Assembly: GCF_000015645.1 (NCBI RefSeq)
Contig: NC_008816.1
Location: 1,302,001 to 1,366,000 of the forward strand
Length of the DNA stretch: 64,000 bases
Reading direction: 5' to 3'
From: Prochlorococcus marinus str. AS9601
GTDB lineage: Bacteria; Cyanobacteriota; Cyanobacteriia; PCC-6307; Cyanobiaceae
Position numbers and translations under genes: made by a program. Below the pieces are notes generated by a model. It did not search any database. It was not told the origin of the DNA and was given only the letters and a program-made list of their open reading frames with translations. How positions within the stretch are numbered: the stretch's first letter is position 1; each line of letters opens with the position of its first letter. This document shows positions 35,981 to 38,161 of the stretch, piece by piece.

Positions 35981-37135
35981 TTAAAAATTGTTTTTTGAAA
36001 AATTTTCTAATATTCTCTGATTTATTTTTGGAATATTTTCTTTAAATTTAAAAAACCCTCTTTTAGCAAATTTCCAAGCAAATAAATCTTCATCCCTCAC
36101 AAGATTAAAAATTTCTTTATGGTGTAAATTTTTAAACTCAGTTATGAAATCATAATTTTCTCCCACTCCAGGATAAATAATGTCTATTTCATTGGTATTT
36201 TTAAAAGTATTTTCCAGTGAATAAGGATCAATCTGTTTAACATTATCAAATTGCTCTACAAATTCAGAGACCAAATCTTGTTTAAATTTCAAAACAGATT
36301 CAGACAATTTAATTTGTCTTTGTTCATTTTTTAAAAGGATAATAAATACTTTTTTATAGCTTGGAAGTAAATTTTTAAGAGTTGCAAGGTGCAGATCATT
36401 TTCAAACATAATCAGATTATCTGATTTAGGATCCATATCATTTTTATAAATCTCATCTTCAAATGGTATTTGATTAGATTCTTCAAGAAAAATTTGTTGA
36501 TTACTTATTTTTTCCACATTAAATCTATTATTAGAAAACTTTCTGAGGTTTGATGATGAAAAAAGATATTGTTTTCCCTTCGTTTGCAATCCTCCAACCC
36601 ATCTCCAGCTAAGGAGATTAGATGAAGCATCTCCATCAAAAAGATATTTAAAGAAAAACTTTGCTCCTAATTGCCATGGGAGGCCTAAATTAAATATCCA
36701 AGTACTCGCAAACCACATTCTTGTATGATTATGCAAATAGTTGTACTGCTTTAATTCATGAACCCAAGAATTAAAAAAATCTAATTCTGTATTGCCATTA
36801 ATTGCATTTTCATATAGCTCATAATCAAAATCGAGATTATTTTCTGAAATAAAATTTCTCCAAACTTTAGGTCTATTTTCCATCCACCCTTTCCAGTAAA
36901 CTCTCCAAAATATTTCTTCAACAAATTTAGTTGAATTTTTGATTTTGTACTTACTTTTAATATCATGGATCAGATCATATTCCGATAATATTCTATGAGT
37001 AATGAAAGGCGATAATTTTGAAACTGAACTTTCGTTATTTGGCCCAAAATCAAAATTTCTTAATTTTGCATAATCATTAATTTTGTATTTCGCAAAATTT
37101 TCCCAGGTATTTTGTGCTTTTAATAAAAATGACAT
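35981..37135 (-). CDS. Photolyase/cryptochrome-like flavoprotein with FAD domain first
   Basis: 384 residues. Residues about 10-205 match the photolyase FAD-binding helical domain: SKLSPFITHRILSEYD, FWRVYWKGWMENRP, HNHTRMWFASTW and LFDGDASSNLLSWRWVGG. The N-terminal Rossmann-like antenna domain that normally precedes it is missing. Residues about 239-370 instead look like that alpha/beta domain placed at the C-terminus (LIMFENDLHLATLKN resembling WFRrDLRL, VFIILL, and DEDLFAWKFAKRGFFKF resembling the end of the domain). This suggests a circular permutation; the FAD-domain call is firm, the permutation is inference. Start ATG 37135. Confidence 0.72.
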   Translation of the reverse strand: MSFLLKAQNTWENFAKYKINDYAKLRNFDFGPNNESSVSKLSPFITHRILSEYDLIHDIKSKYKIKNSTKFVEEIFWRVYWKGWMENRPKVWRNFISENNLDFDYELYENAINGNTELDFFNSWVHELKQYNYLHNHTRMWFASTWIFNLGLPWQLGAKFFFKYLFDGDASSNLLSWRWVGGLQTKGKQYLFSSSNLRKFSNNRFNVEKISNQQIFLEESNQIPFEDEIYKNDMDPKSDNLIMFENDLHLATLKNLLPSYKKVFIILLKNEQRQIKLSESVLKFKQDLVSEFVEQFDNVKQIDPYSLENTFKNTNEIDIIYPGVGENYDFITEFKNLHHKEIFNLVRDEDLFAWKFAKRGFFKFKENIPKINQRILENFSKNNF

Positions 37136-37411: not shown

Positions 37412-38161
37412 ATGAATAATTTATTAGTGAGAGATGTTAAGTATCTTGATGAACAATACAGAATAGGTGAAGGCATAATTTCGGATGATGCATTTAAGCA
37501 ACTAGAAAAGCTCTTTATTCCTGTTGATCCAGAGCCTGACTACTTTAATCAAAAAAATAATAAACTTTTGCCAAAATTAGCCAAAGAAAACTATAAAAAA
37601 TTTTTGGAAAGTTTATTAACAAAAACAAGATTAAGCATTCAACCAAAAATTGATGGCTGTGCTATTGCAATTAGATATATAGATGGCAAGTTTAATAAAG
37701 CTATTACAAAAAAAGGATTTGATGTATCAAGCAAAATTAAACAAATTAAAAATGTCCCCGATTGTATTCCTATCAAACGAGATTTTCAAATTAGAGGTGA
37801 ACTATACGCTACAAACCAAGTTGCCGGCATTTCCCAAAGAATTACAAGAAAATACCTCAATGATAAGAAAGGGATTGGAGAAAGTCTCCGCTTTTGCTGT
37901 TTCGAAATACTTAATGGAAGACTTAATCAATACGAAACCCTTAACTATCTTAAAAAATGTGGCTTCAGCACCCCTGACAGTTACTTCACAAATCATACAA
38001 GCGAAATCCAAATATATAAAAAAAATTGGTTAGAGAAAAAAATATTTGAGAAATATCCAACTAATGGGATAGTTATAAAAATAAATAGTAGGAAATTAAA
38101 GTTACTTAGAGAGAAAAGTTTATCTCAAAATAACGAATGGCAATATGCAATTGAAAGATAA
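37412..38161 (+). CDS. Stand-alone NAD-type DNA ligase adenylation domain
   Basis: 249 residues, against about 670 for a full LigA. Residues 5-36 resemble the Ia NMN-binding helices (YRIGEGIISDDAFKQLEKL). The nucleotidyltransferase core has motif I KIDG with the AMP-accepting Lys79, motif III IRGELY (Arg128-Glu130), FCCFEI, and motif IV NGIVIKI (218-224). It ends about where motif V should lie (EWQYAIER), without its usual Lys and without OB-fold, zinc finger, HhH or BRCT. Self-adenylation is possible; nick sealing alone is unlikely. The upstream stretch ending near 37380 is very AT-rich. Confidence 0.78.
   Translation: MNNLLVRDVKYLDEQYRIGEGIISDDAFKQLEKLFIPVDPEPDYFNQKNNKLLPKLAKENYKKFLESLLTKTRLSIQPKIDGCAIAIRYIDGKFNKAITKKGFDVSSKIKQIKNVPDCIPIKRDFQIRGELYATNQVAGISQRITRKYLNDKKGIGESLRFCCFEILNGRLNQYETLNYLKKCGFSTPDSYFTNHTSEIQIYKKNWLEKKIFEKYPTNGIVIKINSRKLKLLREKSLSQNNEWQYAIER

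Follow-up and report, generated by a model that had tools for sequence, protein, structure and literature searches.

The window, by which we mean the whole stretch of 64,000 nucleotides that was analysed, belongs to a Prochlorococcus genome represented by a single contig of 1,669,886 bp with a completeness score of 99.97%. On its minus strand, at 35981-37135, lies an open reading frame for a protein of 384 aa, with the ATG start codon at 37135 and the stop at 35981. From the ORF, its orthologues and an AF2 model we identified this gene as phr7, coding for a NewPHL-type photolyase. An earlier reading made from the letters of the DNA (below, the sequence-only reading) had placed a photolyase or cryptochrome with exchanged domains at these coordinates, which are correct; the frame is a real ORF. 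Photolyase FAD domain matches were observed in four frames of the host genome, phr7 and frames of 478, 519 and 501 aa. The AF2 model of the whole protein has pLDDT 89.1 and pTM 0.90; it was made from an alignment of 29 sequences, with 28 loci drawn from the best 80 of 565 relatives. Searches with Pfam, NCBIfam and PHROGs gave a confident name for the FAD half of the protein only. Among viral predicted structures there was no match at E-value ≤0.001, and none of 10 matches to phage records covered 80% of the query.

The FAD-binding helical domain occupies residues 1-220 (36476-37135, minus strand), at the N-terminus, just as had been proposed from the letters. The Pfam family FAD_binding_7 covers residues 71-193 (E-value 6e-14), and VIA-align matched residues 1-220 of the model to residues 176-419 of the Thermus photolyase 2j07 with Z 16.1. 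In hhalign comparisons the FAD domain of the phr7 type aligned with canonical photolyases at 99.4% (E-value 3.6e-21). A profile of the phr7 family matched 17 sequences of solved structures at E-value ≤1e-5; all these matches fell into the FAD half and all were to canonical photolyases or cryptochromes.

Conservation within this domain is strict. Residues E74, W77, R78, N136, R139, M140, W154, D167, D169, N173 and W177 are kept in all 42 aligned rows (the window protein included), and the alignment puts them on positions that in class I photolyases contact the flavin or the dimer, or hold the two proximal tryptophans of electron transfer. We take these roles to be those of the E. coli photolyase, where E74, W77, N136, M140 and N173 would correspond to E274, W277, N341, M345 and N378. 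Where photolyases normally have the third tryptophan of the triad, the alignment shows A111, an alanine in 42 of 42 rows; W154 and W177 are both invariant. This pattern fits the Trp dyad reported for a NewPHL, the Dinoroseobacter enzyme being described as having ‘a mere Trp dyad’ (PMC8948257).

The FAD domain is joined to the rest of the protein by residues 205-238 (36422-36523, minus strand). The acidic, linker-like character ascribed to this segment by the sequence-only reading is seen in its composition, 8 D/E against 3 K/R, and the pLDDT of its blocks is 75-92. It is followed by the C-terminal domain, or Z-domain, residues 238-384 (35984-36424, minus strand), for which the AF2 and VIA-align results, the conserved columns and a chain of profile comparisons point to an antenna-type alpha/beta fold. 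Strands are predicted at residues 240-243, 262-266, 299-302, 316-320 and 341-345; conservation is highest in two motifs, YPxxGEN (321-327) and KGxFxFK (359-365). For this half of the protein Pfam gave sub-threshold matches only and NCBIfam gave no confident name.

When residues 226-384 were predicted alone, a five-stranded beta/alpha domain was obtained (pLDDT 89.7, pTM 0.81). VIA-align, run for this model over the 1000 best Foldseek chains, listed 50 rows; 43 of them were photolyases or cryptochromes, which filled every place from rank 1 to rank 20. The best row (Z 8.6, rmsd 2.8 over 108 residues) was to residues 2-131 of 8ijy, while the best row of another kind had Z 6.5. Because the tool cautions that models lacking clear relatives typically reach a best Z of 7-8, we regard the value of 8.6 as good but not conclusive. 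The sequence-only reading had likened residues 239-370 to the Rossmann-like antenna domain of photolyases; with N-terminal domains of photolyases coming out best in VIA-align, the prediction agrees and does not fold these residues as something unrelated, although Foldseek alone would be ambiguous on this point.

Indeed, Foldseek found no match of the Z-domain model in the PDB at E-value ≤0.001; ranks 1-6 were taken by CoaD/PPAT chains with TM-scores of 0.42-0.46, and a photolyase came at rank 7. Taken by itself, this output leaves the model ambiguous between CoaD/PPAT and photolyase. One could thus propose that the NewPHL identity of the protein is right and that its C-terminal domain is an unrelated domain of Rossmann or HUP type, e.g. 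CoaD/PPAT-like, fused independently, so that there is no permutant of the photolyase fold. The NCBIfam CoaD model does match residues 249-338 weakly (E-value 0.076), and genome searches with the CoaD model returned weak matches (E-values 6e-5 to 3e-4, model positions 15-102) to frames of 385-405 aa in four members of the genus; these frames are probably phr7 itself. Also, no direct profile link leads from the Z-domain to the antenna. Still, the photolyase row had a TM-score of 0.52, higher than the CoaD rows ranked above it, and the first 20 places in VIA-align speak against an unrelated domain, as does the alignment of alphaproteobacterial Z-domains to the Phr5/6 domain described below, which was better than that of 80 decoys. 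In hhalign a CoaD profile, a thin one (Neff 1.8; 7 of 16 loci kept, 9 of 16 being without a match to the start motif), gave P 0.19-0.91 against the Z, Z2, alphaproteobacterial Z, Phr5/6 and canonical antenna profiles. CoaD chains were absent from the 50 VIA-align rows listed, which excludes nothing. We consider an independent fusion of an unrelated domain improbable.

The preferred reading, a photolyase with both of its domains in reversed order, is supported by the predicted structure. Residues 1-220 correspond to residues 176-419 of 2j07 and the C-terminal domain to residues 2-131 of 8ijy; the canonical arrangement, with the antenna N-terminal to the FAD domain, is thus not that of phr7. A circular permutant in the strict sense would in addition keep the packing of the two domains seen in canonical photolyases; the structural matches of both domains are sequential, and the pTM of the whole-protein model indicates only that the model is confident in its own packing. 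The order suggested from the letters, FAD domain first and antenna-like domain second, is therefore backed by structure prediction as well as by related proteins, with the sequence link of the C-terminal domain being indirect and weak at one step. The canonical class I CPD photolyases (Thermus 2j07, A. nidulans 1owl) share with phr7 the FAD fold, the aligned active-site residues and the alpha/beta fold of the other half; unlike phr7, they have the antenna domain at the N-terminus and the third tryptophan in place. In solved canonical members such as 2j07 an antenna chromophore is bound.

In direct comparisons the sequence of the Z-domain showed no similarity to an antenna. Against profiles of the canonical antenna or of Phr5/6, the window-type Z profile gave P 0.11-0.63 in local mode and about 0.9 in global mode, and reversed controls did as well; the window-type C-terminal profiles in the three comparisons had 37, 42 and 35 rows. 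With HMMER, the Phr5/6 and canonical antenna profiles scored single Z sequences no better than shuffled sequences.

An indirect chain of three steps could be drawn. At the first step, the Z-domains of four plasmid-borne alphaproteobacterial proteins (4 rows) aligned with the window-type Z profile (35 rows, none shared) at 96.9% with a local E-value of 1.5e-10; the global E-value was 2.7e-9 over 141 columns, with the reversed control at 0.8. These matches place the window protein with the NewPHL Z-domain, where the NewPHL status of the alphaproteobacterial proteins comes from kinship and annotation rather than from comparison with the type sequences A8LJA9 and M7YZC8. At the second step, an alphaproteobacterial Z set of 6 rows compared with the C-terminal domain of Phr5/6 gave P 0.0021, 0.0011, 0.0019 and 3.4e-4 in four runs, and the set of 4 rows gave P 2.5e-4 to 0.001. 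In each of three runs the true score stayed above the scores of all 80 shuffled profiles. The HH probability at this step is only 8-27%, and the bridging alphaproteobacterial set was picked after the resemblance had been spotted by eye. Compared directly with the canonical antenna, the alphaproteobacterial Z-domains had no similarity (P 0.22-0.26).

The third step, from the Phr5/6 C-terminal domain to the canonical antenna, is strong: 97-98%, with local E-values of 1.2e-11 and 3.1e-12 and a global E-value of 4.7e-14 vs 0.19-0.5 for reversed controls. Deinococcus, Persicobacter and genomes of picocyanobacterial type supplied the Phr5/Phr6-type C-terminal set; in the Phr6-type rows added to it (L192-L194) the cut was placed at residue 280, which shortens L192. 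At the level of sequence profiles, the inverted order in the Phr5/Phr6-type group is well supported. For phr7 itself, the predicted structure gives the Z-domain an antenna fold, and its descent from the antenna is likely, though resting on the one weak link of the chain. Our data suggest that the second half of the phr7 protein corresponds to the light-harvesting half of ordinary photolyases, shifted to the opposite end of the chain.

The gene and its inverted order are already published, the gene by Haney et al. (2022) and the class, NewPHL, by Emmerich et al. (2020). Haney et al. (PMC9426592) describe phr7 as consisting of an N-terminal FAD domain and a C-terminal ‘Z-domain’, find it closest to Phr4/Phr6, and count it among the single-stranded-DNA CPD photolyases described by Emmerich et al., citing two NewPHL members as having this activity. 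The inverted order of Phr4/5 and Phr6 is described in the same paper, where the wording ‘atypical, short photolyase domain’ comes close to the idea of the Z-domain as an antenna. Inverted domain topology of NewPHLs, the Trp dyad and a conserved active-site asparagine are mentioned in passages of PMC13274461, PMC8948257 and PMC12083526. Among the papers listed in literature searches on circularly permuted photolyases and NewPHLs, no title or abstract opening equates the Z-domain with the antenna; Emmerich et al. may have done so. Thus, the new element may be the nature of the C-terminal Z-domain.

With the NewPHL/Phr7 class the window protein has in common the N-terminal FAD domain, the C-terminal Z-domain, the Trp dyad and the lack of Fe-S cysteines; we found no difference that would distinguish the window gene from this class. 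Phr4/Phr5 (split) and Phr6 (fused) have the same inverted order as phr7 and the nearest FAD domains: the profile of the Phr7 set aligned with that of the Phr6 set with E-value 1.3e-45 vs 1.9e-21 for canonical photolyases. They differ from phr7 in that the C-terminal domain is recognisable as an antenna by profile, in being often divided into two ORFs and, according to Haney et al. (2022), in carrying Fe-S cluster cysteines, which were found in Phr4 and Phr6 (PMC9426592). None of the 384 residues of the window protein is a cysteine; the four Fe-S cysteines of Phr4/5/6 are missing, and the protein therefore cannot bind such a cluster.

Genes with inverted order were seen in other bacteria too. 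A plasmid of Deinococcus sp. QL22 (L121, 2860-4151) carries the split form, in which an ORF with the FAD domain overlaps a separate antenna-like ORF annotated as hypothetical, while D. wulumuqiensis and D. psychrotolerans have a fused inverted photolyase (L193, 1830-3248, and L194, 1818-3191, respectively); this alternation of split and fused forms is the same as that of Phr4/5 vs Phr6. Persicobacter plasmids (Bacteroidota; L122 and L192) carry fused inverted-order photolyases in which, by eye, the cysteine motif at the C-terminus of Phr4/6 is missing; these proteins may stand between Phr6 and NewPHL. Near the alphaproteobacterial NewPHL-type genes (L119, L120, L188, L189 and L190) we observed AarF/UbiB-type kinase genes in Ruegeria, Peteryoungia and one Asticcacaulis, and DUF3429 genes in two Asticcacaulis and in Novosphingobium, so that these genes perhaps have a common neighbourhood. 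On a conjugative plasmid of Novosphingobium sp. THN1 (L191) the NewPHL-type open frame is only 255 aa long and the tblastn match comes in two pieces, which suggests a frameshift, either in the record or in the gene.

Matches over both domains were found in 17 of 201 genomes of the family, i.e. in 10 of 10 genomes of the host's own genus and in 7 of the 9 listed genomes of a second group, g56. A survey of orthologues, which the sequence-only reading had named as a check, thus shows conservation of a reading frame that spans the two domains. When only the C-terminal half served as the query, 6 of 101 genomes gave a match. Among 292 cyanobacterial genomes the full-length profile spanned the two domains in 13 (12 from the host's genus and one from g56), and the other matches listed end by profile position 221. 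Haney et al. report phr7 in HL and LLI Prochlorococcus, with ‘most’ HL strains named in the results and ‘all’ in the discussion (PMC9426592). Since they find the gene only in HL and LLI, we regard g56 as LLI Prochlorococcus.

The best 80 of 565 relatives, a scan which favours near relatives, included picocyanobacterial records with 56-98% identity and proteins of SAR86, SAR11 (Pelagibacteraceae), SAR116 (Puniceispirillum), OM182 and other marine proteobacteria with 42-49% identity. Proteins 85-98% identical to the window protein were found, within the same 80, in Prochlorococcus records such as MIT 9201 and MIT 9302, which we take to be high-light strains. In one alignment the identity to the window protein was 39-40% for six rows of g56 and 41-47% for 25 marine proteobacterial rows. 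A full-length relative from Ruegeria has 34.5% identity over 94%.

In a full-length tree of 40 rows built by a quick method (L190 and L191 being left out), both Prochlorococcus groups stood on one branch with support 84, not starred, and this branch lay within a larger marine group of 34 rows (97, starred). The simplest reading is a transfer of phr7 from marine proteobacteria to Prochlorococcus. Separate acquisition of the gene by HL and LLI was considered as well; the FAD-domain tree is compatible with it, while the full-length quick tree gives the single branch (84, not starred). In the FAD-domain tree NewPHLs formed one group (100/99), and NewPHLs together with Phr4/6 were separated from 13 of 14 canonical rows by a branch with support of 100/100; the fourteenth row, L156, is a very long branch beside a Deinococcus row. 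The places of the long branches (L156, L154 and Persicobacter) in this tree are unsure, the tool itself warning of long branches.

Taking structure, profiles and relatives together, we consider it quite probable that phr7 encodes a NewPHL-class photolyase with the catalytic FAD domain first and an antenna-type alpha/beta domain second, whose most likely activity is repair of CPDs, probably in single-stranded DNA, and whose C-terminal domain would be a relocated antenna that probably no longer harvests light. In such an enzyme blue or UV-A light would excite the reduced flavin; the excited flavin would pass an electron to a cyclobutane pyrimidine dimer, the dimer would split, and the electron would return. 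By analogy with published NewPHL work, the substrate would be a CPD in single-stranded DNA. We infer that the C-terminal domain descends from the photolyase antenna domain and that its move to the C-terminus may have followed a path of the kind that split (Phr4/Phr5) and fused (Phr6) genes still display. Having probably ceased to harvest light, it would instead cap or seal the flavin pocket. The abstract of the 2020 paper on the class reportedly speaks of inverted topology and of sealing of the FAD site by a C-terminal domain. In three VIA-align rows with Drosophila cryptochrome the aligned range ends at residue 362-363 of the model and at residue 527-530 of the chain; we take the latter to lie in the C-terminal tail near the flavin pocket. 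These end points of aligned ranges give a slight hint that the KGxFxFK motif of the model may be what caps the flavin.

Altered light sensing had also been suggested from the letters, with repair named beside it. Some photolyase homologues are indeed sensors, and phr7 could in principle encode a light sensor of cryptochrome type instead of an enzyme of repair. We found no support for sensing: the CPD-repair residues E74, W77, N136, M140 and N173 are invariant in the 42 rows, two NewPHLs are reported as single-stranded-DNA CPD photolyases (PMC9426592), and a Pfam scan of seven neighbouring ORFs detected known signalling domains in none (one of the seven had no match). Both the conservation of the repair residues and the activity published for NewPHLs favour DNA repair; a sensory role is very improbable.

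The repair enzyme bears on the origin of the family. NewPHL- and SPL-type short photolyases have been proposed as possible ancestors of photolyases and cryptochromes (PMC8948257, PMC9498864; title of Xu 2021). We lean towards seeing the NewPHL Z-domain as an antenna domain that has degenerated and changed ends, from the N- to the C-terminus. NewPHLs would then descend from the Phr4/5/6 photolyases, or have an ancestor of inverted order in common with them, and would not be antenna-less survivors from the origin of the family; the antenna would have been reused as a flavin-sealing cap once the domain swap had freed it from harvesting. On balance we slightly favour NewPHLs as derived rather than ancestral inverted-order enzymes. 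If the C-terminal domain of NewPHLs is a swapped antenna, the argument for short photolyases as ancestors weakens, and the split, fused and degenerate forms would make a visible series for a change of domain order in a two-domain enzyme. The enzyme seen in Prochlorococcus, SAR11, SAR86 and SAR116 would then probably be a shared, horizontally moved gene.

A separate observation concerns the gene beside phr7. At 37412-38161 on the plus strand the window carries a stand-alone adenylation domain of NAD-dependent DNA ligase (249 aa; PF01653, E-value 8e-18). The host genome has only this frame and one other frame of 249 aa, with a LigA of normal length being absent, while in most other genera sampled LigA frames are of ∼700 aa. 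Of 101 genomes of the genus, 4 (65-77% complete) had a full-length LigA match, and none of the 30 with at least 90% completeness and at most 5% contamination did. The ligase OB domain was seen in 0 of 13 genomes of the genus, whereas all 7 of the other cyanobacteria compared have it. The normally essential bacterial ligase seems to have been lost in this Prochlorococcus group, although a passage of PMC6698739 mentions, for this species, an NAD-dependent enzyme that is replicative. Among the papers listed in literature searches on this point, no title or abstract opening reports such a loss; the host genome has frames of the ATP-dependent ligase family of 548 and 444 aa.
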